Shown piece after piece: positions 16,326-36,649 of a stretch of DNA of 64,000 nucleotides. The position numbers were made by a program, and so were the translations under genes. The stretch comes from Stigmatella aurantiaca (GTDB taxonomy: Bacteria > Myxococcota > Myxococcia > Myxococcales > Myxococcaceae), in contig NZ_FOAP01000008.1 of the NCBI RefSeq assembly GCF_900109545.1, positions 62,001 to 126,000 on the forward strand, in the 5' to 3' direction. Below the pieces are notes generated by a model. The model worked only from the letters and a program-made list of their open reading frames with translations. It was not told the DNA's origin and did no database searches. The first letter of the stretch is position 1. Each line of letters begins with the position of its first letter.

Positions 16326-17508
<1,183 letters not shown>

Positions 17509-17519
<11 letters not shown>

Positions 17520-20400
17520 TCTTGGTTCCTCGGAGGATGGCTTCCTCGACGATGAGGTTCTGCTCGTAGTCGTGCGTCTTCGTGAAGCCGGTGGCGGGGC
17601 TGGCGGCTTCCGCCCGCCCGATGTAGCCCACCTTCACGGGACCGGTGGCATGGGAAGATGCCACGTCGTGGAGGCGGGGGAACATGAAATACCAGCCGCC
17701 CGCGTTGCGCGGCTCTTCCTGCACCCAGTACAGCTCGGAGAGCTTCGGGAAGCTGGCCACGAGGCGGGACACCGCCTCGAACGGGAACGGGTAGAGCTGC
17801 TCCAGGCGGACGATGGCCACGTTGCGGACCTGCTGCTCGTCCCGGGCCTTGACCAAATCGTAGTAGACCTTGCCGGAGCACAGCAGCAGCCGCGTCACGC
17901 CCTCGGGGGCGAGCTCCGCGCGGTCGGGGATGACTTCCTGGAACTGGCCGGTGGCCAGCTCGTCCAGCTTGCTCACCGCCTCGGGGCGGCGCAGCAGGCT
18001 CTTGGGCGACATGACGACGAGCGGCTTGCGGTAGGGGCGCACCACCTGGCGGCGCAGCAGGTGGAAGATCTGCGCGGGGGTGGTGGGGTAGCAGACCTGG
18101 AGGTTGTCCTCGGCGCACAGGCTCAGGAAGCGCTCCAGGCGGGCGCTGGAGTGCTCCGGGCCCTGGCCCTCGTAGCCGTGGGGCAGGAGCAGCGTGAGCC
18201 CGGAGAGCCGGCGCCACTTGCTCTCACCGGCGGCGATGAACTGGTCGATGATGATCTGCGCGCCGTTGGCGAAGTCACCGAACTGGCCCTCCCACAGGGT
18301 GAGGCCGTCCGGCACGTCCAGGCTGTAGCCGTACTCGAAGCCCATCACGCCCATCTCGGACAGGGGGCTGTTGAAGACCTGGAAGGAGGCGCGGCCGGTG
18401 GGGAACTGGGACAGCGGCACGAAGCGCCCGCCCGTCTTCACGTCGTGCAGCACCGCGTGGCGGTGGCTGAAGGTGCCGCGCTCGCTGTCCTGGCCGGACA
18501 GGCGCACCGTGTGGCCCGCGCTCAGGAGCGTCGCATAGGCGAGCGCCTCGCCCTCGCTCCAGAGCAACTCCTCGCTCTCCAGCATGGCCTGGCGCTTCTT
18601 GAGCACCGTGCGCTCGACGACCGGGTGCACGTTGAAGCCCTCGGGCGCCACGGACAGCTTGCGCAGGGCCTCGCGCAGCTGGGCCTTGTCCACCGCGGTG
18701 GCCACCTGCGGCGCCTGGGTGTAGGAGCCGCCCTTGTAGGGCTGCCACAGGCCCTCCAGGGCGCTGGGCTCCTTGAACTGGCGGGCCTGCTTGATGCGGG
18801 TGAGCGCCTCGTCGAAGTCCTTGAGGCAGCGCTGCTTGATGTCCTCGGACTCCGCGGCGGGGATGCGGCCGGTCTCGGCGAGCGACTGGGCGTAGACCGT
18901 GCGCACCGTGGACTGCTTGCGGATGAGCTCGTACATGCCCGGCTGGGTGAAGGAGGGGTCGTCTCCCTCGTTGTGGCCGTAGCGGCGGTAGCAGATGAGA
19001 TCGATGACGACGTCGCTCTTGAACACCTGGCGGTACTCGGCCACCAGCCGCGCCACGTGCACGCACGCCTCCGGGTCATCCCCGTTCACGTGGAACACGG
19101 GAATGTCCAGCATCTGCGCGATGGCGGTGGCGTAGATGGAGGAGCGCGAGTCGTGCGGATCGGTGGTGAAGCCCACCTGGTTGTTGATGACGATGTGCAG
19201 CGTGCCGCCCGTCTCGTAGCCCTTGAGGCGCGAGAGGTTGAGCGTCTCGGAGATGACGCCCTGGCCCATGAAGGCCGCATCTCCGTGGATGAGCAGCGGC
19301 ATGACCCGCGTGCGCTCGGTGTCCCCGCCGCGGTCCTGCTTGGCGCGCACGCGCCCCTCCACCACCGGGTCCACCGCCTCCAGGTGGCTGGGGTTGAAGG
19401 CCAGTGACAGGTGGATCTTGGTGCCCGCGCGGGTGGTGTGGTCCGAGGAGAAGCCCATGTGGTACTTCACGTCGCCGCGCCCCATGTAGGCCTTGGGGTC
19501 GGCCGGGCCCTCGAACTCGCTGAAAATCTGATCCGGGCTCTTGTGCAGGATGTTCGTCAGCACGTTGAGGCGGCCGCGGTGGGCCATGCCGATGACGACT
19601 TCCCGCAGCCCCATGCCGCCGCCCACCTCGAGGATGGCGTCCATCATGGGGATGAGGCTCTCGCCGCCATCCAGGCTGAAGCGCTTCACGCCCACGTACT
19701 TGGTGTGCAGGAAGTGCTCGAAGCCCTCGGCGTAGGAGAGCTTGGTGAGGATGTGGCGCTGGTCCTCCTGCGAGAACGGGGTGCGGTTCTCGCTGTGCTC
19801 CATGCGCTTGAGCAGCCAGCGGCGCCGCTCGCTGTCGAGCATGTGCATGAATTCCACGCCGATGGAGCCGGCATAGGTGCTGCGCAGCCGGCTGAGCAGC
19901 TGCGACACCTTCACGCGCCCTTCGGGGAAGACGTTGCTCGTCTCGACGCTCTGCTCCAGCTCCTGGGTGGAGAAGTGGTTCTCGTCCACCATGGGCATGT
20001 CCGCCACGTGCTCCAGGGGCGGGCGGGGGCGGCCCAGCGGGTCCAGCTTGGCGCGCAGGTGGCCCCGGAGCCGGAAGGCGGTGATGGTGTGGTCCACGCG
20101 CGACTGCAGGCGCATGTCCTGCGCGAGCGTGGCCACGGCGGCGTTGGCCGCGGGGGCAGCGGGCGTCACGGCCGCGGCGGGGGCGGCCTGTTTGCCGTTC
20201 TTGCCGGGGGGCGCGGCCGCGGGGGCGGGCGCCTCCAGCAGCGTCTTGCTGAAGATGGGGCGGCCCCCACCATTGCTCTTCTCGAAGATGTCGCGCCAGC
20301 TGGGATCCACGCTGGAGGGATCCTGCAGGTAGCGCGCGTAGAGACCTTCGATGAAGTCGATGTTGGCGCCGGAGAGGTACGTGTCCTGGAAATTCGCCAT
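17509..20400 (-). CDS. sucA: 2-oxoglutarate dehydrogenase E1 component
   Basis: A 963-residue thiamine-diphosphate-dependent decarboxylase. It starts with the helix typical of SucA that recruits E2 ([25 protein letters not shown]). An Ala/Gly/Pro-rich insert covers about residues 60-90. The ThDP/Mg motif region includes the [10 protein letters not shown] segment. [13 protein letters not shown] and [13 protein letters not shown] are SucA signatures, and [12 protein letters not shown] is in the C-terminal domain. The length is normal. It is first gene of a sucA-sucB unit. It is divergent from the enoyl reductase gene across 274 bases in which no clear promoter was recognised. Confidence 0.95.
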
Positions 20401-21546: not shown

Positions 21547-21571
21547 CGCCCGGTCTCTTGAAGACCGGGCG
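21547..21571 (+). terminator. Intrinsic terminator of the enoyl reductase gene
   Basis: A perfect 10-base-pair stem (CGCCCGGTCT / AGACCGGGCG) with the 5-base loop CTTGA, followed by TGCTTTCTC, 45 bases after the stop codon. Confidence 0.8.
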
Positions 21572-21656
21572 TGCTTTCTCCCCCGGAAGCGGACACGCTA
21601 GAGTCTCATCTGTTTGCAGCGGGGCCGTAGGCGGCCATCGCGTGAGGAGCCGTGGG

Positions 21657-22040
21657 GTGAGTGCCAACATCCTGGTGGTGGATGACAGCCCAACCGTCCG
21701 CAACATCATCAAGATCTACTTGATGAACCTCCGGCTCAGCATCATCGAGGCGGAGGATGCGACGCGGGCGTTGCAGCTGTTACGGCTCGTGCCGGTGAGT
21801 GTCGTGATCGCGGATATCAACATGCCGGGCATGGATGGCATCACCTTCGTGAAGGAGCTGCGCGCCAATCCCATGCCCCAGGTGCGCGGCATCCCCGTGA
21901 TTCTCCTGACCGCGGAGAAGGGCGGAGACCTGCGGCAGCGGGGCGCCGATGCCGGGGCCAATGCGTTCATCCAGAAGCCGGTGTCCCACCACGATTTGAC
22001 CGAGACGGTCCGTCAGTACCTGCCCCAAGCCGCCCCGTGA
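21657..22040 (+). CDS. Single-domain response regulator (CheY-like)
   Basis: A 127-residue receiver domain. It has NILVVDDSPTVRN with the acidic pair, phospho-acceptor D53 in VIADINMPGMDG, Thr in ILLTAEKG and Lys in AFIQKPV. No output domain is present, so it acts like CheY by docking to a target. It opens the chemosensory operon. GTG at 21657 is selected because AGGAG lies 7 bases upstream; GTG 21642 is a weaker alternative. Its TGA overlaps the next GTG (GTGA). It is the best candidate for the diffusible output of the pathway. Confidence 0.9.
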   Translation: MSANILVVDDSPTVRNIIKIYLMNLRLSIIEAEDATRALQLLRLVPVSVVIADINMPGMDGITFVKELRANPMPQVRGIPVILLTAEKGGDLRQRGADAGANAFIQKPVSHHDLTETVRQYLPQAAP

Positions 22041-22900
22041 GCCTCCCGTCCCTCCTTCTCGTCGATGACAGCGACGCCATTCTCGCGCTCGAGCGGGCCA
22101 TCCTGTCAGGCCACTACTCGCTGAACACCGCGAGCAACGGCCGCGAGGCGCTCGAGAAGGTGGGACGGCTCCAGCCGGAGGCCGTGCTGCTGGACCTGTC
22201 GATGCCGGAGATGGACGGGGACGAGGTGCTCCAGCGGATGAAGGCCACCGCGGCCACCGCCAGCATCCCCGTCATCATCATTTCCTCGGAGAAGTCGCGC
22301 GCGGAGGCGTGCCTGGGGCTGGGGGCGGAGGCGTTCCTGGCCAAGCCCTTCCGCGCCGAGGATCTGCTGTCCGCGGTGGCCAAGGCGCTGGAGAACGCCC
22401 GCAAGCGCACGCGCGCCGGGGCGATGCTGGTGCTGCGGATGACGACGGGGGACCAGGAGTTCGCCGTGCCCCTGGACGCGGTGCGCGAGGTGCTGCTGCA
22501 GCCAGCCCTGCGGCCCCTGCCCACCGGGCCCGACTACCTGCGCGAGTACGTGGAGCTGCGCGGCTCGGCGGTGTGCGTGCTGGACGTGGCGCGCCGGCTG
22601 GAGATGGAGCACCGCGTGCCGGTGCGCGAGCGGATGCTCGTCATCATCCACGTGGACGGTGTGCCGCTGGCCCTGTGCGTGGACCGGGTGCAGGACCCGG
22701 AGGAGTTCCCCGCGGGGGACATCGACCGGCGCCTGGGCGGCGTGGAGCATGGGCTCCTCAAGGAGGGGCTCATCGGCATGCTTCGGGTGGGGGGAGGCCG
22801 GACGCTTCCCCTGTTGGATCCGCGCGTCTTCGTCGCGCGGGAGCTATTGAAAGACTTGTCCACGCTGTTGAAGCCCGGTGGTGTGGGACAGGGCGCATGA
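22037..22900 (+). CDS. Receiver-CheW fusion protein
   Basis: A 287-residue protein. Residues 3-122 are a receiver domain (LLLVDDSDA, phospho-site D53 in LLDLSMPEMDG, Lys in FLAKPFR). Residues about 130-270 are a CheW-like domain (FAVPLDAVREVLL, VELRGSAVCVLDVARRL, LALCVDRVQDPEEF). CheW links receptors to CheA, so the fused receiver could tune array coupling by phosphorylation, as CheV does. The order is REC-CheW, the reverse of CheV (CheW-REC). It starts with GTG inside the stop of the preceding gene, and its own stop overlaps the cheR start by 4 bases. Confidence 0.88.
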   Translation: MSLPSLLLVDDSDAILALERAILSGHYSLNTASNGREALEKVGRLQPEAVLLDLSMPEMDGDEVLQRMKATAATASIPVIIISSEKSRAEACLGLGAEAFLAKPFRAEDLLSAVAKALENARKRTRAGAMLVLRMTTGDQEFAVPLDAVREVLLQPALRPLPTGPDYLREYVELRGSAVCVLDVARRLEMEHRVPVRERMLVIIHVDGVPLALCVDRVQDPEEFPAGDIDRRLGGVEHGLLKEGLIGMLRVGGGRTLPLLDPRVFVARELLKDLSTLLKPGGVGQGA

Positions 22901-24111
22901 CGGGGCCGGGGGGAATGGATCCACTGCTGTTTGCCCGGGCCCGGCAGCTGGTCTCCGAGCGGACAGGTTTCCGGGACGACGCCATTGCCCCGGAGTCCCT
23001 GGAGCGCGTCGTGCGAGCGGAGCTGGCGCGCGGGCGCTCCTTGGGGGAGCTGCTCACCGAGCTGCAGAACCCGGAGTCGCCCTTCGCCCAGGTCGTCGTG
23101 CGCTCCTCGCTGGTGGGGGAGACGTACTTCTACCGGCACCCGGAGCACTTCCGCTTCGTGGCCCGGGACGGGGTTCCCGGCGTGCTGCGCCGCAACCCGA
23201 TGCGCCTGCGGGGCTGGAGCGCGGGGTGTGCCACCGGGGAGGAGGCCTACTCGCTGGCGTCCTGCCTGCTGGCGTCCGCGCCGCCGGGCATGCCCGTGGA
23301 GGTGCTGGGCACGGACATCAACGAGACGAGCCTGGCCCACGCCCGGCGCGCCACCTATGGCGCCTGGTCCCGGCGGGACTCCGGCCCCCACCTGTTTCCG
23401 CTGTACCGCGCCATCGGGGAGCGGGAGGTGGTCATCCTGGAGGGGGTGCGGAGCGTCACCACCTTCGCGGTCACCAACCTGATGGGGCCGCTGCCGGATC
23501 TGTTCGGGTTCTTCGAGTTCATCCTCTGCCGCAACGTGCTCACCTACTTCACGCCCGCGGCGCGCGAGGTGGCCATCGGCCACATCGTCCGGGCGCTGGC
23601 CCCGGGGGGCTACCTCTTCCTGGGCACCGTGGAGGTGGACCGCGTTCCGGACGGGCTGGTGCGCGTGGGGCCCCCCGAGCTGCAGGCCTTCCACCGCCCC
23701 GAGACGCCCCTGGCCCCTCCCAAGGCGCTCGTGCCCAGGCCCGCTCGCACCGGGCACCCGCGGATGACGCCGCCCCCGGTGGCCTTGCCCCCACCCGAGC
23801 CGCCCCGCTCGCCCTCGCAGTTCCACCTGGAGGCGCTCGAGCGCATCGAGCAGGGCGACGTTCCCCGGGCCACGCTCATGCTGGAGGCCCTGGTGCGGCA
23901 GTTCCCGGACTACCTGCCCGGCTTGCTGGAGCTGGCCCTGCTGCGCGAGCGCAATGGGGCCCGCGCGGCCGCCTACCCGCTCATGCGCGCCGTGCACGCC
24001 CGCGCGGCGAAGCTGCCCCCGGATCAGCTCGTCGAGGGGCCCGAGTGTCTTCCCGCCCGCTTCTACAAGGCGTCGGCGGACGCCTATCTGAACCAGGGAG
24101 CCGCTGAATGA
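22897..24111 (+). CDS. cheR: CheR-type methyltransferase with C-terminal extension
   Basis: A 404-residue protein. CheR catalytic domain (about 5-270): SLVGETYFYRHPEHF, SAM site WSAGCATGEEAYSLA, GTDINETSLAHARRATYG and FILCRNVLTYF. It methylates receptor glutamates for adaptation. After a Pro-rich linker (about 270-310), residues about 315-404 are Ala/Leu-rich helices of TPR type (ERIEQGDVPRATLMLEAL), comparable in layout to the TPR-bearing FrzF of the Frz pathway. It overlaps the genes on both sides by 4 bases. ATG 22897 is fixed by the overlap; ATG 22915 is an internal alternative. Confidence 0.9.
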   Translation: MTGPGGMDPLLFARARQLVSERTGFRDDAIAPESLERVVRAELARGRSLGELLTELQNPESPFAQVVVRSSLVGETYFYRHPEHFRFVARDGVPGVLRRNPMRLRGWSAGCATGEEAYSLASCLLASAPPGMPVEVLGTDINETSLAHARRATYGAWSRRDSGPHLFPLYRAIGEREVVILEGVRSVTTFAVTNLMGPLPDLFGFFEFILCRNVLTYFTPAAREVAIGHIVRALAPGGYLFLGTVEVDRVPDGLVRVGPPELQAFHRPETPLAPPKALVPRPARTGHPRMTPPPVALPPPEPPRSPSQFHLEALERIEQGDVPRATLMLEALVRQFPDYLPGLLELALLRERNGARAAAYPLMRAVHARAAKLPPDQLVEGPECLPARFYKASADAYLNQGAAE

Positions 24112-24656
24112 AGGTGATTCCAAGGACCCTGGATGAAGCCCAGGAGGAGGAGCTCCGCCGGCTCCTGGAGCGGCGCGCGGAGCGCCTCCGGGAACAGGAG
24201 CAGGGCGACAGCACCCAGGACGAGGCCGTCTACATGGTGGCCGAGTTCCCCCTGGGCGAGGAGCGCTACGCGCTGCCGCTCGAGGCGCTGCGCGCGGCGC
24301 TCCCGCTGCGGATGGTGACCCCCGTGCCGCTCTCGACGCCCCACATCATCGGCGTGCTGCGCTTCCAGGGGCAGGTGCTCGCGGCCCTCAGCCTCGCGTC
24401 CCTGCTGGGAGGCCACGGCTGGCGGGAGGATCCCGCGGTCCTGCTGGTGGTGGACCGGGGCGATGGGGAGCTGTGCGCGCTGGACTGCGAGGCCATTCCG
24501 CGCCCCACGAGCCTGCCCGTGGCGGCGGTGGAGGCGGCGCGCTCCCGGGCGGAGGGCGCCATCCTGGAGGTCTACACCGACCAGCAGCTCGTTCACCTCA
24601 TCGATCCGCCCCGCCTCTTCGTGAAGGCCGGAACGGGAGTGCGTCATGGCCGTTGA
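24108..24656 (+). CDS. cheW: CheW-like coupling protein
   Basis: A 182-residue protein. Residues 1-42 are charged helix (EEELRRLLERRAERLREQ). Residues about 43-175 form a CheW domain with YMVAEFPLGEERYALPLEAL, PHIIGVLRFQGQVLAALSL and VHLIDPPRLF. It should bridge the chemoreceptor and the P5 domain of CheA in the inner-face array. The N-terminal helix is longer than in ordinary CheW. It starts in the cheR stop (ATGA), and its last 11 bases overlap cheA, so the three are translated together. A second CheW domain is present in the receiver fusion, so the array has two coupling proteins. Confidence 0.88.
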   Translation: MKVIPRTLDEAQEEELRRLLERRAERLREQEQGDSTQDEAVYMVAEFPLGEERYALPLEALRAALPLRMVTPVPLSTPHIIGVLRFQGQVLAALSLASLLGGHGWREDPAVLLVVDRGDGELCALDCEAIPRPTSLPVAAVEAARSRAEGAILEVYTDQQLVHLIDPPRLFVKAGTGVRHGR

Positions 24657-26895
24657 TCCTCTCCTGCAAAGTCTCGTCTCGGGCTTTGCCGCCGAGGCCC
24701 AGGAAGTCTGCCAGAAGGTGACGATCGACCTGCTCGAGCTGGAGCGGGACGGGCTGGATGCCGATGCGCTGAACAAGGCCTACGTGCGGCTGGGGCGCCA
24801 CCTGCACACGCTCAAGGGCAGCGCCGCGAGCCTGGGCCTGCAGGACCTGAGCGAGATCGCCCACAAGCTGGAGGACGCGCTGGCGCCGCTGCGCGAGCAT
24901 CCGCAGAAGATGCCGCGGGCGGTGGTGGACCTGCTGCTGCACGGCCTGGACATCTTCATGCTGCGCGTCCAGGCCCACGCGGATGGGCGCGGGGACGCGC
25001 TGCCGGACTACACCATCGCCCTGGCCCAGCTCGTCGCCGTGGCCCCTCCGCCGGAGCTGGCCACCGCGGTGCCCAGCCCCGCCGCGCCTCCGGTGGCGGG
25101 GGTGGCCGCCGCGCCGGCCCCTGTCGCGGCCGCCGTGCCCGCCGCCGCCTTGCCCCCGGCCCCCAAGCCGCCGGCCTCCACGCCCGCGCCGCTGCCCACG
25201 GGCGGAGGCGGAGGCACGGGGCCGGCCGAGCTGCCCCGGGACGAGTTCCACTCGGGAGACTCCGAGGGCGCGGGCTGGCGGGTGGGCACGCGCCAGGTGA
25301 CGGCGCTGATGCGCGAGGTGGAGCGCCTGCGCGAGGTGCGTCTGCGCACCGAGGAGCGCTCGCGCGAGTTGGACCGGGCGGTGGCGCTGCTGGCCCGGCA
25401 GGGGCTGCTGGCGGAGACGGCCGAGGCCCGGACGCTGCTCGCGGGCGTGGGACGGGCGCTGCGCTCCGATGGGGAGGAGACGGCCGACGTCGTCGACGCG
25501 CTGGAGGAGGGGCTCAAGGCCATCACCACCCGGCCGGTGCGCACCATCCTCGAGCCGCTGCAGCGCATGGTGCGGGACCTGTCCCGCCAGCTGCGCAAGG
25601 AGGCGCGGCTGTCCGTGGTGGGGGCCGAGGTGTCGCTGGACCGGCGGCTCCTGGAGAAGCTCAACGGGGCGCTGGTGCACCTGCTGCGCAACGCGGTGGA
25701 CCACGGCCTGGAGTCTCCCGCCGAGCGCGAGCGCACCGGCAAGCACCACGAGGGGGCGCTCACCCTGCGCATCGAGCAGCAGGGCAACCTGCTCTTCCTG
25801 GAGTCCAGCGACGACGGCCGCGGCATCGACGTGGCGCGCGTGCGCCAGGTGGCCGAGAGCCGGGGGCTGGCCACCGCCGAGGAGCTGTTGCGGATGAACG
25901 ACAACCAGGTGAGGGACCTCATCTTCCGCCCGGGCTTCAGCACCCGCGCGGACGTGACGGACACCTCCGGGCGCGGCGTGGGGCTCGACGCGGTGCGCGC
26001 CGCGGTGGAGTCACTCCAGGGCCGCATCGAGGTGGCCAGCACCCTGGGCCAGGGCACGCGCTTCATGCTCACCCTGCCGGTGGAGCTGGGCAGCTCGCCG
26101 GTGCTGGTGGTGCGCGTGTTCGACCAGATGATGGGCCTGCCCATGCTGGCGGTGGAGGCCACGCAGCTCACGCGCATGAGCACCCTGCGCCTGAGCAAGC
26201 GGCGCGCCCAGCTCGAATACCAGGGACAGCTCATCCCCGTGGTGGACCTGGGCGCCCGGCTGGGCCTGCGCGCCGCCTCCCCGCCGTCCGAGGGGCAGCC
26301 GCTCATGGTCATCCAGAACGGCGGCAAGCGCGTGGCGCTCGCGGTGGACTCGGTGGTGGGTGACAGAGACCTGGTCATCCGGCCGCTGCCCGCGGAGGTG
26401 CGGGATGTGCCCGCCTACCAGGGCGCGGCCACGCTGAGCCGCGGCGAGCTGATGCTCATCCTGCGCCCCAACTGGCTGGTGCTGGAGCCCGCCACCCTGT
26501 CCGCCGTGGCCCCGCAGAGCCGCCGGGCCCTGGTGGTGGACGACTCGCTCACCGCGCGCGCCCTGCACCGGGCCATGCTGGAGGCCGGTGGGTTCACCGT
26601 GCACCTGGCCTCCAGTGGCGCCCGGGCCCTGGAGCGGGTGCTGACGGATGCCTACGATGTCATCATCTGCGACCTGGAGATGGAAGAGATGGATGGCGAG
26701 GAGTTCATCCGCCGCATGCGGCAGCGCCCCGAGACGCGCAACCTGCCCATCATCCTCGTCTCCACCCACGAGGCGGCCCGGGACCGGGGCCGCCTGGCGG
26801 GAGCGGATGGATTTCTGAGCAAGCGCGACTGTGCCTCGGGCCGGTTGCTGGCCGAGGTTCTCGACGTGATGAGCCGCCGCGGAGGACGCCCATGA
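24646..26895 (+). CDS. cheA: Hybrid chemotaxis histidine kinase CheA-REC
   Basis: A 749-residue protein. Hpt (P1) domain with H54 in RHLHTLKGSAASLGL. An Ala/Pro linker (about 135-190) takes the place of a clear P2 domain. A dimerisation segment, an HATPase domain (HLLRNAVDHGLESPAER N-box, DDGRGIDVARV, GRGVGLDAVRAAV) and a CheW-like P5 follow. The C-terminal receiver starts at about residue 625 (ALVVDDSLTARALH, ICDLEMEEMDGEEF, FLSKRDC). The fused receiver is as in FrzE and could be a phosphate sink or competing output. ATG 24646 overlaps cheW by 11 bases, and its stop overlaps the cheB start. Confidence 0.92.
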   Translation: MAVDPLLQSLVSGFAAEAQEVCQKVTIDLLELERDGLDADALNKAYVRLGRHLHTLKGSAASLGLQDLSEIAHKLEDALAPLREHPQKMPRAVVDLLLHGLDIFMLRVQAHADGRGDALPDYTIALAQLVAVAPPPELATAVPSPAAPPVAGVAAAPAPVAAAVPAAALPPAPKPPASTPAPLPTGGGGGTGPAELPRDEFHSGDSEGAGWRVGTRQVTALMREVERLREVRLRTEERSRELDRAVALLARQGLLAETAEARTLLAGVGRALRSDGEETADVVDALEEGLKAITTRPVRTILEPLQRMVRDLSRQLRKEARLSVVGAEVSLDRRLLEKLNGALVHLLRNAVDHGLESPAERERTGKHHEGALTLRIEQQGNLLFLESSDDGRGIDVARVRQVAESRGLATAEELLRMNDNQVRDLIFRPGFSTRADVTDTSGRGVGLDAVRAAVESLQGRIEVASTLGQGTRFMLTLPVELGSSPVLVVRVFDQMMGLPMLAVEATQLTRMSTLRLSKRRAQLEYQGQLIPVVDLGARLGLRAASPPSEGQPLMVIQNGGKRVALAVDSVVGDRDLVIRPLPAEVRDVPAYQGAATLSRGELMLILRPNWLVLEPATLSAVAPQSRRALVVDDSLTARALHRAMLEAGGFTVHLASSGARALERVLTDAYDVIICDLEMEEMDGEEFIRRMRQRPETRNLPIILVSTHEAARDRGRLAGADGFLSKRDCASGRLLAEVLDVMSRRGGRP

Positions 26896-27947
26896 AGCGC
26901 CCCATTCGAGTGCTGGTGGTGGATGACTCGCCCACCATGGTCAATACGATGGCCACGCTGCTGACCATGGACTCGCGCATCGAAGTGATTGGGCGCGCGG
27001 GCGATGGCAACCGGGCCGTGTCGCTGGCCCGGCTGTTGCGGCCGGATGTCATCACCATGGACCTGCTGCTGCCGGGGCTGGATGGGCCCGGGGCCATCGC
27101 CGCCATCATGACGGACGCGCCGGCGCGCATCCTGGTGGTGAGCGCCGTGGCGGACCGCGGGGCGGACCTGGCCTTCCAGGCCATCCGGGCCGGGGCGCTG
27201 GAGCTCATCGCCAAGCCCAACGTGACGTCGGGCGAGGAGCTGCGGAGATGGGGCCGGGAGCTCGTCAACTCCGTGTGCCTCATGGCGGAGGTGCCCGTGG
27301 TGTCCCGCCGCGCGCGCAAGGATGTGCCGCTGCCGCCGCCCTCCACGGGGGCGCGGGTGGACATCTTCGGGCTGGCGGCCTCCACCGGGGGACCGCCGGC
27401 GCTGGCCGAAATTCTTTCGCGCCTGCCCAAGGAGCTGCCCGTGCCGGTGGTGGTGGCCCAGCACATCACCGAGGGCTTCACCCCGGGCATGGTGCGCTGG
27501 CTCAGCCAGGTCACCACCCTGGGGGTGGCCATCGCCCACGAGGGCGAGCGGCTGGAGCCGGGCAAGGTCTACTTCGCGCTCGACGGGCATGACCTCACCC
27601 TGGAGGGCGGCGTGGCCCGGCTCAGCCGGACGCGCGGGGGGCCGTGCCCCTCGGGGGACCTGCTGCTCTCGTCGCTGGCCCGCGTGTACGGCAGCCGGGC
27701 AGGCGGCATGGTGCTCACGGGCATGGGAGAGGATGGCGCGCGTGGGCTGTTGGACATCTACCAGGTGGGTGGGGTGACCTGCGCCCAGGACGAGGCCACC
27801 TCCGTGGTCTTCGGCATGCCCAAGGCGGCGTTGGATCTCGGGGCCACCACCCAGGCGCTCGCGCTCTCCGCCATGCCGGACTTCATCCGGCAGTGCTGTA
27901 CGCGTCCATTCGACCGGCCGCGGGGGGGATTTGGAGAGGCGGTATGA
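26892..27947 (+). CDS. cheB: Chemotaxis methylesterase CheB
   Basis: A 351-residue protein. Receiver (1-125) with LVVDDSPTM and D57 in ITMDLLLPGLDG. Methylesterase domain (about 155-345) with the triad S164 (LAASTGGPPAL), H191 (VVAQHITEGF) and D281 (TGMGEDGARGL). It removes receptor methyl groups, opposing CheR. The ATG lies in the stop of cheA (ATGA). Forty bases separate it from the receptor gene. Confidence 0.93.
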   Translation: MKRPIRVLVVDDSPTMVNTMATLLTMDSRIEVIGRAGDGNRAVSLARLLRPDVITMDLLLPGLDGPGAIAAIMTDAPARILVVSAVADRGADLAFQAIRAGALELIAKPNVTSGEELRRWGRELVNSVCLMAEVPVVSRRARKDVPLPPPSTGARVDIFGLAASTGGPPALAEILSRLPKELPVPVVVAQHITEGFTPGMVRWLSQVTTLGVAIAHEGERLEPGKVYFALDGHDLTLEGGVARLSRTRGGPCPSGDLLLSSLARVYGSRAGGMVLTGMGEDGARGLLDIYQVGGVTCAQDEATSVVFGMPKAALDLGATTQALALSAMPDFIRQCCTRPFDRPRGGFGEAV

Positions 27948-27987
27948 GCCGGTTGCTGCTTAACGTGAACGTGCCCGCGGTGTTTCC

Positions 27988-29589
27988 GTGAAATTGCCCA
28001 ATCGGTTCCGTCTCTCGCTTGGCCTGTCCGTCAAGTTCATCCTGGTCACCGGGGCGATCAGCGCCATCGTGGCGGTCATTCTCACCACGGTGGCCACGCG
28101 CAGGCTGCACCAGAGCCTCGTGGTGGCGCACGCGAGCGAGGGGGCCGCGCTCGCCCTGGGGCTCACCCGGGCCGCCGAGCAGGAGGCCCGGAGCGCCGGG
28201 GAGAGCGTCTCCCTGCAGAACCTGATCGAGTCGTTCCAGGTGCAGCAGGGGGTGAGCTACATCTACGTGTCGGACTCCACGGGCCGCGTCCTCGCGCACA
28301 CCTTCCGGGGCATGCCCCCCGCGGAGCTGATCGCCAGCACGCGCGTGGAGCCCATCGTGCTGGAGCAGGAGCCCGAGCAGCGGCGCATCCAGGAGGTGGA
28401 GCTCGGCACGGGCAAGGCGCGGCTGCACGCGCTCGACATCGCCGTGCCCCTGGTGGACAACCGGGGCGTGGTGCACGTGGGCGTGCAGCGCGATTCCCTG
28501 GGGAAGAAGGCCGCGCAGCTGTCCCAGGAGATGCTCCTCCTGGCGCTGGTGCTCGTGGCGGGCAGCGTGGTGGTGGCCGCGGTGTTCGTGCGCACCATCG
28601 TGCGGCCCCTGAGGAACCTGACCGATGTGGCCGCCCACATCGTCGAGTCCGGAGACCTGACGCGCTCCATCCAGGTGACGAGCGGGGATGAGGTGGGCCG
28701 GCTCGCCAAGAGCTTCTCCCAGGTGGTGGAGAAGCTGCGCGAGGTGACCATCAACCTCCAGCAGGCCGCCGAGGCGCTCAAGCAGTCCACCGACCACCTC
28801 AACGCCTCGTCCAACGAGCAGGCGCAGACCGTCTCGCGCCAGGCCGCCGCGCTCCAGGAGACGCAGGTGACGGCGCACGAAATCCGCCAGACGAGCCTCC
28901 TGGCCTCGCAGAAGGCCGCCTCGGTGCTGGCGGTGGCCGAGCGCGCCGACGAGCTGGCCCGCTCGGGCGAGGCCGCCATCGAGATGACGATGGCGGGCCT
29001 GAACGACATCCGCAACCAGGTGGGCAAGATTGCCCAGAAGATCATCGAGCTGGGCGAGCGCACGCAGCAGATCGGCGGCATTACCCAGACGGTGAAGGAC
29101 CTGGCGGACCAGTCGAACATGCTGGCGCTGAATGCCGCCATCGAGGCGGTGCGCAGCGGCGAGCACGGCAAGGGCTTCGGCGTGGTGGCCCGCGAGATCC
29201 GGGCCCTGGCGGACCAGTCCATCCAGGCCACCAGCCGGGTGCGCGAGCTGCTCGATGACATCAGCACCTCGGTGAGCGACGCGGTGCGCATCACCGAGAG
29301 CGGCGCGGAGCGCATGGAGTCAGGGCTGACGCAGGTGCGCACCTCGGGCCAGAACCTGCGCGAGCTGTCCGGCATCGTCCAGGACAACGCCGCGGCCGTG
29401 CGGCAGATCGCCGCCGCGGTGAATCAGCAGAACGTGGGCATCAACCAGATTCACCAGGCCGTGAACGAGCTGTCGAAGATGATGGACGACACGGTGGCGC
29501 GCATCGGCTCCACGGGCGAGGCGGCCACCACGCTGCAAATCATTTCCGAGCAGCTCAGCAGCGCCGTGAAGAGTTACCGGGTAGAGTAG
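27988..29589 (+). CDS. Methyl-accepting chemotaxis protein
   Basis: A 533-residue inner-membrane receptor. TM1 is at about residues 13-37 and TM2 at about 178-201. They flank a periplasmic sensor of roughly 140 residues with no recognised Cache or PAS signature (FQVQQGVSYIYVSDSTGRVL suggests a small single-Cache-like fold). HAMP (about 202-255, RPLRNLTDVAAHI) and the signalling hairpin follow, with tip sequence HGKGFGVVAREIRALADQS. The C-terminus lacks a NWETF-type tether, so CheR must bind another way. The start is GTG 27988. It closes the chemosensory operon and is the only receptor in it. Confidence 0.9.
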   Translation: MKLPNRFRLSLGLSVKFILVTGAISAIVAVILTTVATRRLHQSLVVAHASEGAALALGLTRAAEQEARSAGESVSLQNLIESFQVQQGVSYIYVSDSTGRVLAHTFRGMPPAELIASTRVEPIVLEQEPEQRRIQEVELGTGKARLHALDIAVPLVDNRGVVHVGVQRDSLGKKAAQLSQEMLLLALVLVAGSVVVAAVFVRTIVRPLRNLTDVAAHIVESGDLTRSIQVTSGDEVGRLAKSFSQVVEKLREVTINLQQAAEALKQSTDHLNASSNEQAQTVSRQAAALQETQVTAHEIRQTSLLASQKAASVLAVAERADELARSGEAAIEMTMAGLNDIRNQVGKIAQKIIELGERTQQIGGITQTVKDLADQSNMLALNAAIEAVRSGEHGKGFGVVAREIRALADQSIQATSRVRELLDDISTSVSDAVRITESGAERMESGLTQVRTSGQNLRELSGIVQDNAAAVRQIAAAVNQQNVGINQIHQAVNELSKMMDDTVARIGSTGEAATTLQIISEQLSSAVKSYRVE

Positions 29590-31508: not shown

Positions 31509-32795
31509 ATGGTGAAGCGCAGAGGGGGGCGTTCTCAATCTCGATTCGACCATCGACATGAGGAGCTGGTGTCCGCAACGGAGGCGGCGGCGTTGCTGGG
31601 CATCAAGCGGACGACGCTCTACACGTACGTGAGCCGGGGGCTCGTGCGGTGCGTTCCGGAGAAGGGGACGAAGCAGAACCGCTATGTGCGCATGGACTTG
31701 GAGCGGCTGAAGGTCCGGCACGACGCGCGGGCGGGGCATGCGGCGGTGGCCTCGGGCGCGCTGCGCTGGGGCGAGCCCGTGATTGACTCCTCCGTGACGC
31801 GCATCGATGCGCGGGGCGTGGCCTACCGGGGCCACCCGGTGGTGGAGCTGGTGGCGCGCGGCGCCTCCTTCGAGGCGGTGGCGGAGCTGCTGTGGACAGG
31901 GCAACTGCCAGCGGCTCCCGTGCGGTGGCCCGCGCCGCCGTTGCCCTTTCCCGCCTCGGCGCTGAAGGGCCTGCTCCCCGCCGAGGCGCCTCCCGTGGTG
32001 GTGCTCTCCGCGGTGGTGCCCCTGTGGGGGGCCGCGGACCCCGTGCGTTTCGCCGCACCGTCCGAGCAGGAACGGCTTCGGGCCCGGAGGCTGCTCCGGC
32101 TGCTGGGCGCATGGGTGGGCGCGGTCCAGGGACCCCGCCGTGTGGCCGAGGCGCTGGCGCAGGACTCCCTGGCTGCGGGGCTGGTGCAGGCCTGGGGGGT
32201 GAAGGCCCGGGGCGCGGCCGGGCTGCTCGACCGGGCCCTGGTGCTCTGCGCGGACCACGAGCTGAACGTCTCGACCTTCGCCGCGCGGGTGGCGGCCTCC
32301 TCCGGGGCGGACCTGTACGCGTGTGTGAGCGCGGCGCTCGCGGCGTTGTCCGGGCCCCGGCACGGGGGCGCGTGCGATCGCATCGAGGCGCTGATGCAGG
32401 AGGTGGGGCGTCCCGGGCGCGCGGCCACGGTTGTCCACGAGCGGCTGCGGCGGGGCGAGTCCATCCCCGGCTTCGGGCACCGGCTCTATCCCGAGGGGGA
32501 CCCGCGCACGCCGCCCCTGCTGGAGGCGGCCTGGGCGGTGCGCCCGGAGCGGGCAGCGGTCCGGGTGGCGCGCGCGGTGGCGGACGCCATGCGGGAAGAA
32601 GGGCACCCGCCGCCCACCGTGGACTTCGGACTGGTGGCGCTGGCGGCGGCCCTGGGCTTGCCCCGGGGGGCGGCCACGGCGCTGTTCGCGGTGGGGCGCG
32701 CCGCGGGCTGGATGGCCCACGTGCTGGAGCAGCGCGAGCAGGGTCACGTGCTGCGGCCCCGGGCCCGCTACGTGGAGGCCAAAAAAGAGGGGTGA
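31509..32795 (+). CDS. Citrate synthase-family protein with N-terminal helix-turn-helix
   Basis: A 428-residue protein. Residues about 18-70 form a MerR/excisionase-type winged helix (LVSATEAAALLGIKRTTLYTYVSRGLV). The remainder is a citrate synthase fold. All three catalytic positions are kept: His in GPRHGGACDRIEAL, His in PGFGHRLYPEGDPRT and Asp in PTVDFGLVAL. The RPRARYV arginines lie near the end. The protein could be a metabolite-sensing regulator or an active synthase that is DNA-bound. Such HTH-citrate-synthase proteins are known as a family, but I know of no settled function. Its stop codon lies inside the terminator stem at 32789-32818. Confidence 0.82.
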   Translation: MVKRRGGRSQSRFDHRHEELVSATEAAALLGIKRTTLYTYVSRGLVRCVPEKGTKQNRYVRMDLERLKVRHDARAGHAAVASGALRWGEPVIDSSVTRIDARGVAYRGHPVVELVARGASFEAVAELLWTGQLPAAPVRWPAPPLPFPASALKGLLPAEAPPVVVLSAVVPLWGAADPVRFAAPSEQERLRARRLLRLLGAWVGAVQGPRRVAEALAQDSLAAGLVQAWGVKARGAAGLLDRALVLCADHELNVSTFAARVAASSGADLYACVSAALAALSGPRHGGACDRIEALMQEVGRPGRAATVVHERLRRGESIPGFGHRLYPEGDPRTPPLLEAAWAVRPERAAVRVARAVADAMREEGHPPPTVDFGLVALAAALGLPRGAATALFAVGRAAGWMAHVLEQREQGHVLRPRARYVEAKKEG

Positions 32796-32818
32796 AGGGG
32801 CATGAACCCCTTCACCCC
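32781..32818 (-). terminator. Intrinsic terminator of clpA, overlapping the citrate-synthase gene end
   Basis: A perfect 12-base-pair stem, GGGGTGAAGGGG (32789-32800) with CCCCTTCACCCC (32807-32818) and a 6-base loop. On the minus strand it is followed by TCTTTTTT (complement of 32781-32788). The T-run side serves clpA. The left arm includes the TGA stop of the convergent citrate-synthase gene. Confidence 0.85.
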
Positions 32819-32840
32819 GAATGACAACTCCCGGAGGCGG

Positions 32841-35129
<2,289 letters not shown>

Positions 35130-35132
35130 GGT

Positions 35133-35456
35133 TCAACCTTCCTCTGGTTCCATCGAGAGTCGCAGCGGGTACCCATTGTCCCGGGCTGCATCCTCTACGG
35201 TCTTTACCTTCGTCTCGGCGACCTCATAGGTATAAACGCCCGCCACGCCGATGCCGTTGTAATGAACATGCAGCATGATCTGCACGGCATCGCCCTCGGA
35301 CTTGTGGAAGATTTCCTTGAGGACCGCGACCACGAACTCCCGCGTCGTGTAGTTGTCGTTGTGCAGAAGCACCTTGTAGAGGGTGGGCTTCTTGAGCTTC
35401 TTCTCGGGGCGGGTCTCGGTGACGACGTTCTCGTCGTTTTCGAACTTCTGGGCCAT
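35133..35456 (-). CDS. clpS: ClpS adaptor protein
   Basis: A 107-residue adaptor that delivers N-end-rule substrates to Clp[21 protein letters not shown] is the conserved core including the Asn-Asp that recognises the alpha-amino group. [21 protein letters not shown] carries the second conserved strand. The acidic N-terminal tail (about 1-25) is of normal length. It lies directly upstream of clpA. Confidence 0.95.
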
Positions 35457-35485
35457 GGCTCTTCCTTAGGACGTGAGGGGGGACC

Positions 35486-36649
35486 TCACACCCCTTCCTT
35501 CTTGAAACCAGTCGCCGCGTGCCACCGGGACAGTCCCGTCCGCACGGCTGCCTGCTCCTGGGACAGGAAGGCACGTACGGCCCGGTCCAGTCTAGGGTGA
35601 AGGAGCAGGTGCGCGCTGTAGGTGAGATGGGGCTCGAATCCGCGCGTCAACTTGTGCTCCCCCCCGGCGCCTGGCTCGAAGCGCCGCAGTCCCTGGGCGA
35701 TGGCCTCCTGGATGGGGTGGTACAGGCAGACATTGAAGTGCAGAAACGGATGCTCCTCGATGCACCCCCAGTACCGTCCATACAGGACGCCCGGGCCGAC
35801 GAGGTTGAACGCGCCGGCGATGCGCTGGCCTTCCCGCCGGGCCTCCACGAACTCGCAGCGGTGGCGGAAGGTAGCAAGCAGGCGAGCGAAGAACTCCGGG
35901 GTGAGGAGGCGGCGGCCCCACGGGTACTTGTCCACCGTGGAGCGGTAGAAGCGGAAGATCTCCTCGCTGCCCAGCGCCGAGAGCTCCTCGCCGCGCAGCG
36001 TGCGCAGGGTGATGCCCTGCTCGGCGGGCGCGCGCAGCTCGCGCCGCAACTGGTGGCGCCGCTTGGCGTGGAAGCGGCCGAGGAAGTCCTCCAGCGAGCG
36101 GTAGCCGGGGTTGTGCCACTGGTACTGCACCCCCAGGCGCACCGCGAAGCTGGAATCCTCCAGCACACCCAGCTCCTCCTGGGAGGGGAAGAGGACGTGG
36201 ATGCCGGAGATGCCCTCGGAGCGCGAGTAGGCCAGGGCCCCCGCGTACAGCTCCGCCTCGCGCAGGGCCCGGTCCTCGCCGGGGGCCACGAGGATGCGCC
36301 GCCCGGTGACGGGGGTGAAGGGCACGGTGAGCACGAGCTTCGGGTAGTAGCGCAGGCCCACCCGGCCGGCCGCGTCGGCCCAGGTGCCGTCGAAGACGAA
36401 CTCACCCTCGCTGTCGTCGCGCAGGTACGCGGGCGCGGCGGCCACCAGGCGAGAGCCCTGCCACAGCGTCAGGTGGCGCGGGTGCCAGCCCCGCTCGGGC
36501 GCCACGCTGCCGCTCTCCTCCAGCGCCACCAGGAAGGCCCACTCCATGAAGGGCACGGCCGCGTCATCCAGCAGCGCGTCCCAGTCTTGCTGGGCAACCT
36601 CGGTGAGGGCGCGGTGGACGCGCAGGGTGGCGGGCGTCGGACGGGACAT
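35486..36649 (-). CDS. FemAB-like/GNAT-fold N-acyltransferase family protein
   Basis: A 387-residue protein of the COG3146 (PF04339-like) family. It has VPFMEWAFLVALEESGSV at the N-terminus, GWHPRHLTLW, and the C-terminal half with FHAKRRHQLRRELR, GAFNLVGPGVLYGRYWG and HFNVCLYHPIQEAIAQGL. These elements mark the family, which folds like peptidoglycan amino-acyl (Fem) or GNAT transferases; the acceptor is not known. It is followed by clpS after 29 bases, suggesting a shared transcript of acyltransferase, adaptor and unfoldase. Whether it makes N-terminal modifications relevant to ClpS is only speculation. Confidence 0.75.
   Translation of the reverse strand: MSRPTPATLRVHRALTEVAQQDWDALLDDAAVPFMEWAFLVALEESGSVAPERGWHPRHLTLWQGSRLVAAAPAYLRDDSEGEFVFDGTWADAAGRVGLRYYPKLVLTVPFTPVTGRRILVAPGEDRALREAELYAGALAYSRSEGISGIHVLFPSQEELGVLEDSSFAVRLGVQYQWHNPGYRSLEDFLGRFHAKRRHQLRRELRAPAEQGITLRTLRGEELSALGSEEIFRFYRSTVDKYPWGRRLLTPEFFARLLATFRHRCEFVEARREGQRIAGAFNLVGPGVLYGRYWGCIEEHPFLHFNVCLYHPIQEAIAQGLRRFEPGAGGEHKLTRGFEPHLTYSAHLLLHPRLDRAVRAFLSQEQAAVRTGLSRWHAATGFKKEGV

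Follow-up and report, generated by a model that had tools for sequence, protein, structure and literature searches.

A Che5-type chemosensory gene cluster with a receiver-CheW adaptor in Stigmatella aurantiaca

The seven-gene cluster and its surroundings

The window, the whole stretch of 64,000 nucleotides of Stigmatella aurantiaca DNA that was analysed, contains seven che genes at 21657-29589, all on the same (+) strand and with their domains assigned through Pfam. The first of these, cheY (CheY5, 21657..22040, +), has a GTG start and encodes a protein of 127 residues that is a single receiver (Response_reg). It is followed by the gene for a receiver-CheW fusion, REC-cheW (CheW5b, 22037..22900, +), the 287-residue product of which has its receiver at 7-114 (Response_reg) and its CheW domain at 133-264, and by cheR (CheR5, 22897..24111, +), which encodes a methyltransferase of 404 residues (Pfam CheR 6.7e-31 at 75-246) with no Pfam match to a TPR in its C-terminal extension. 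Then come cheW (CheW5a, 24108..24656, +; 182 residues, Pfam CheW) and cheA-REC (CheA5, 24646..26895, +), whose product of 749 residues contains Hpt, HATPase_c, CheW and Response_reg domains and has no Pfam match to a P2 domain. The set is completed by cheB (CheB5, 26892..27947, +), encoding 351 residues with a receiver and a methylesterase (Response_reg, CheB_methylest), and mcp (Mcp5, 27988..29589, +), for a receptor of 533 residues with sCache_3_2, HAMP and MCP signalling domains. From cheY to cheB the consecutive genes overlap by 4, 4, 4, 11 and 4 bases, respectively, and a gap of 40 bases separates cheB from mcp. An open reading frame at 22878-24107 was rejected as cheR, being in a different frame from the true gene and having no Pfam match.

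These domains and coordinates bear out the seven genes named in an earlier note on this DNA, along with its 4- or 11-base overlaps as far as cheB, its domain order in the fusion as the reverse of that in CheV and, from Pfam of the cluster genes, its statement that the cluster itself has no CheC, CheX or CheZ. Its count of four receivers besides that of CheB was one too many: there are three, in CheY, REC-CheW and the CheA tail, and that of CheB is the fourth. Across the whole source genome (9.37 Mb in 61 contigs, with 28 CheW-domain matches) CheX and CheZ have no match, and the only match to CheC, G000:C5:87351-87464, is inside another che cluster beside another CheA. That cluster is, on the strength of the known DifG, probably the Dif counterpart. 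With NCBIfam the proteins of the present cluster match nothing more specific than the general models for CheA and CheB, and these at scores under their cut-offs.

Upstream of cheY there is a short conserved stretch at 21594..21606 (+), its core CACG[CG]TA being shared by all 10 of the upstream regions that were aligned; judged by its sequence it is possibly a -10 region. A pattern scan gave a terminator-like hairpin at 21547..21571 (+), between the upstream enoyl-reductase gene and cheY, which is weak given that one hairpin was seen against 1.3 expected by chance. The sole candidate of a promoter scan, 21682-21709, lies inside cheY and was set aside. The window has no exact match to the MrpC consensus 5' of cheY, unlike M. 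xanthus, where a putative MrpC site is described 5' of MXAN_6033 in the accessible text of PMC4320627; the consensus has four matches in the window, fewer than the chance mean of 14.4, and the nearest of these, 22951-22965, falls within cheR.

Counterparts of the gene at 17155-19407 and of the enoyl-reductase-like gene also stand ahead of the cluster in M. xanthus and at those loci of Myxococcus, Corallococcus, Pyxidicoccus, Hyalangium and Archangium that were examined, but not at more distant ones. On the other side, a counterpart of 32802-35600 lies directly 3' of the receptor gene at loci of Myxococcus, Pyxidicoccus, Corallococcus and Archangium. Both 17155-19407 (750 residues) and 32802-35600 (932 residues) are large open reading frames with no Pfam match whose counterparts flank Che5. 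In the window a protein that resembles citrate synthase and has a helix-turn-helix match at its N terminus is encoded at 31509-32795, between the Che5 cluster and the gene that directly follows Che5 in Myxococcus.

Correspondence with Che5 of Myxococcus xanthus

The Che5 system of M. xanthus, as tabulated in the accessible part of PMC3945109, consists of CheY5 (MXAN_6033, 128 aa), CheW5b (MXAN_6032, 288 aa; receiver 6-115, CheW 131-270), CheR5 (MXAN_6031, 413 aa), CheW5a (MXAN_6030, 182 aa), CheA5 (MXAN_6029, 714 aa; receiver 591-704), CheB5 (MXAN_6028, 355 aa) and Mcp5 (MXAN_6027, 531 aa). The corresponding contig of M. xanthus AM003, to which both L057 and L140 belong, has start codons that allow proteins of 128, 288, 413, 182, 714 and 355 residues, which equal the published lengths for the first six Che5 proteins. 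This contig ends inside the receptor gene, so that the best-match comparison with M. xanthus covers the six proteins from CheY to CheB, and it supplies the best M. xanthus match for all six (6/6) of them. The identities are 78% for CheY, 73% for REC-CheW, 62% for CheR, 73% for CheA, 72% for CheB and, over 151 residues, 78% for CheW against CheW5a, whereas the next-best matches reach 32-40% within the comparison set, which comprised nine regions of that genome, each taken around CheW-domain matches. For the receptor, the mcp counterpart in the same position in Myxococcus eversor (L060) is 69% identical.

The relationship can also be followed in a tree of 36 CheA cores, of which 10 belong to this genome, 8 to M. 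xanthus and 18 to relatives, and for which the tool warned that long branches could meet falsely. The CheA of the window and CheA5 of M. xanthus fall within one clade of 20 rows (support 100/100), and seven of the eight M. xanthus CheAs each pair with one CheA of this genome (100/100 or 100/99). The clade of the window lies near the pairs L129/L141 and L125/L138, with a support of 90/96 that is under the strict mark; from their gene content these pairs are probably Che4 and Che6. The placement agrees with the group formed by Che4, Che5 and Che6 in the accessible text of PMC3945109. In the fetched regions this genome has 10 CheA cores and M. xanthus 8, and the tree pairs two CheAs of this genome, G000, at L124:9548-11227 and L130:10987-13251, with no CheA of M. 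xanthus.

The cluster thus resembles M. xanthus Che5 in its seven genes, their order, the REC-CheW fusion, the CheA-REC hybrid and its CheA clade, and differs from it in the length of CheA, 749 against 714 residues. The Frz system of M. xanthus is similar in having a CheA-REC hybrid with no P2 match and in its context of surface motility and development, but it belongs to another CheA clade if its member is L139/L128, an assignment made from gene content. In PMC3945109, as far as its accessible text goes, Frz is further set apart by a FrzZ with two receivers, by having no REC-CheW and by a FrzCD with no transmembrane segment.

On the grounds of sequence, the cluster is the local Che5 chemosensory system, orthologous to MXAN_6033-6027. 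Comparison with the M. xanthus Che systems, which the earlier note had proposed, thereby settles the relationship and at the same time takes away, as the note had said such orthology would, the novelty that the note implied, since identity, lengths and tree make the cluster a one-to-one orthologue of a characterised system with equal gene order and the same fusion. The system, the gene order and the fusion are already in print, and apart from its adaptor the cluster is ordinary.

Conservation of the cluster among relatives

The spread of the adaptor was followed in 58 evenly drawn genomes of the family, with REC-CheW counted at E 1e-25 or better and plain CheW at E 1e-15 or better. Each is found in 29 of the 58 genomes, the two lists of genomes are identical and the two matches lie near each other on one contig, so the fusion is no occasional extra. 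From 80 named loci 43 were kept because their match spans the fusion, and the other 37, matching mainly the receiver, were left out; as the 42 rows other than the window were all recruited with the REC-CheW query, clusters with no fusion could not appear among them. All seven genes are present in order at 21 of the 43 loci, in two of which, L043 and L057, a contig end truncates the receptor gene. Among the 21 are loci of Myxococcus, Corallococcus, Pyxidicoccus, Archangium and Anaeromyxobacter as well as some from metagenome assemblies.

Most of the remaining loci are broken off by contig ends. L046, L049-L053, L058, L069, L070, L074, L076 and L078 break off at such an end or close to it, L059 and L063 run out at mcp or within it, and in L056 mcp is cut and was scored on the wrong strand. 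At L077 there is no mcp match in the next 1338 bases, L080 has neither cheR nor mcp, L082 has mcp upstream and L079 has it on the opposite strand, while L073 and L075, not scored complete, look disturbed. L084 was scored incomplete, yet its seven genes are visible.

Two same-genus genomes contain a second, diverged Che5-like cluster, with a REC-CheW of about 48% identity. In G006 (Hyalangium versicolor; L146:9899-15285, L080) it has cheY, REC-cheW, cheW, cheA and cheB, with cheR and mcp unmatched. In G004 (L144:7902-11034, minus strand) the matches are confined to cheY, REC-cheW, cheB and the end of cheA, and by its sequence this copy looks decayed.

Residues were counted over those rows whose match covers at least half of the window protein. 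In CheY, D9, D10, D53 and K107 are invariant in 43 of 43 aligned proteins and T85 is threonine in 41 and serine in two. In REC-CheW, D10, D11, D53 and K103 are invariant in 44 of 44, with S83 as serine in 43 and threonine in one. The phosphoacceptor H54 of CheA and three checked ATP-site positions are the same in 32/32, as are four checked positions of its tail receiver, including D676, and, in CheB, the catalytic triad of S164, H191 and D281 together with two receiver aspartates. Judged by these residues, the active sites of the checked Che5 proteins are intact.

Proposed signalling and possible role of the REC-CheW adaptor

A scheme of signalling can be proposed from the protein families. 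In this scheme Mcp5, a Cache receptor, and partner receptors would control the autophosphorylation of CheA5 at H54 through both CheW5a and REC-CheW. From CheA5 phosphate would pass to CheY5 as the likely diffusible output, to CheB5, which would bring about adaptation jointly with CheR5, and to the receivers of its own tail and of REC-CheW. By analogy with CheA-REC hybrids such as FrzE, the receiver on the CheA5 tail is probably a brake, or a sink for phosphate, that replaces a phosphatase.

The output, carried over to S. aurantiaca from the genetics of M. xanthus, would most likely be the timing of development together with S motility, in a module shared with Che4 and Che6. In M. xanthus mutation of cheA5 leads to premature development (PMC4320627, in its accessible text), and among mutants of cheA4, cheA5 and cheA6 the double mutants are more affected than the single ones while the triple mutant looks wild type (PMC3945109, likewise), so that Che5 has no simple role. 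The remark in the earlier note that the output need not be motility was sound, and these published data link Che5 to development. The best explanation as a whole, namely a Che5 orthologue with a signalling scheme drawn from its families and an output drawn from M. xanthus, is held with considerable confidence, and points that speak against it include the order of domains in REC-CheW, opposite to that of CheV, the missing MrpC match 5' of cheY and the wild-type look of the triple mutant.

What, then, might the receiver of the adaptor do? In CheV the CheW domain comes first and is followed by the receiver. REC-CheW is like CheV in having the two fused in one adaptor and unlike it in their order, and this reversal rules it out as a member of CheV. 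Modelled by AlphaFold2 with 25 sequences (mean pLDDT 87.2, pTM 0.59), REC-CheW has two well-folded domains joined by a helix at 107-126, their mutual placement being uncertain. The receiver is 38% identical to the tail receiver of CheA5, which is no better than the values of up to 41% against unrelated receivers of the genome, so that it says nothing about an origin from the CheA5 tail.

In M. xanthus CheW5b is the only CheW that binds McpM and it also binds Mcp4, Mcp5 and Mcp6, according to the accessible text of PMC3945109; for Pseudomonas aeruginosa that of PMC12691637 describes a phospho-mimetic CheV with a high affinity for some receptors and no binding at all to others. By analogy with this phospho-CheV, the receiver of REC-CheW probably alters the affinity of the CheW domain for particular receptors. 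It is a tentative and rather speculative proposal that REC-CheW is a separately arisen, reversed-order counterpart of CheV, in which phosphorylation of the receiver would select the receptors, within a pooled Che4/Che5/Che6 array, that couple to CheA5. A search mostly outside subscription journals, in which absence proves little, turned up no published test of the CheW5b receiver.

It is possible, though short of probable, that the receiver instead serves mainly as a phosphate sink, draining CheA5 for a faster decay of the signal with no effect on the choice of receptor. The cluster has no phosphatase gene, the sole CheC of the genome lying elsewhere, and the active site of the receiver is complete; but CheA5 already bears a receiver able to serve in this way, and the fusion retains a receptor-binding CheW domain with, in CheW5b, a receptor specificity of its own. 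A passive or structural receiver that takes no phosphate in the cell is improbable: some receivers are generally known to function without phosphorylation, but here the receiver retains all five active-site positions, with four invariant in 44 of 44 proteins down to 42% identity. Practically no credence is left for the idea of a new chemosensory system, apart from the M. xanthus Che systems, whose adaptor architecture would be new as well, for although the domain order is opposite to CheV and the accessible text of PMC3945109 (2014) does not discuss the fusion as such, the fusion is tabulated there as CheW5b, and orthology, order, lengths and tree, all pointing to Che5, refute the idea.

The cluster is now tied to a published pathway with mutant phenotypes, at the cost of its candidate novelty. 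For the receiver of CheW5b, the recent work on CheV supplies a ready hypothesis and an assay, and if gating of receptors by this receiver were true, the activity of one kinase would re-wire a multi-pathway array.
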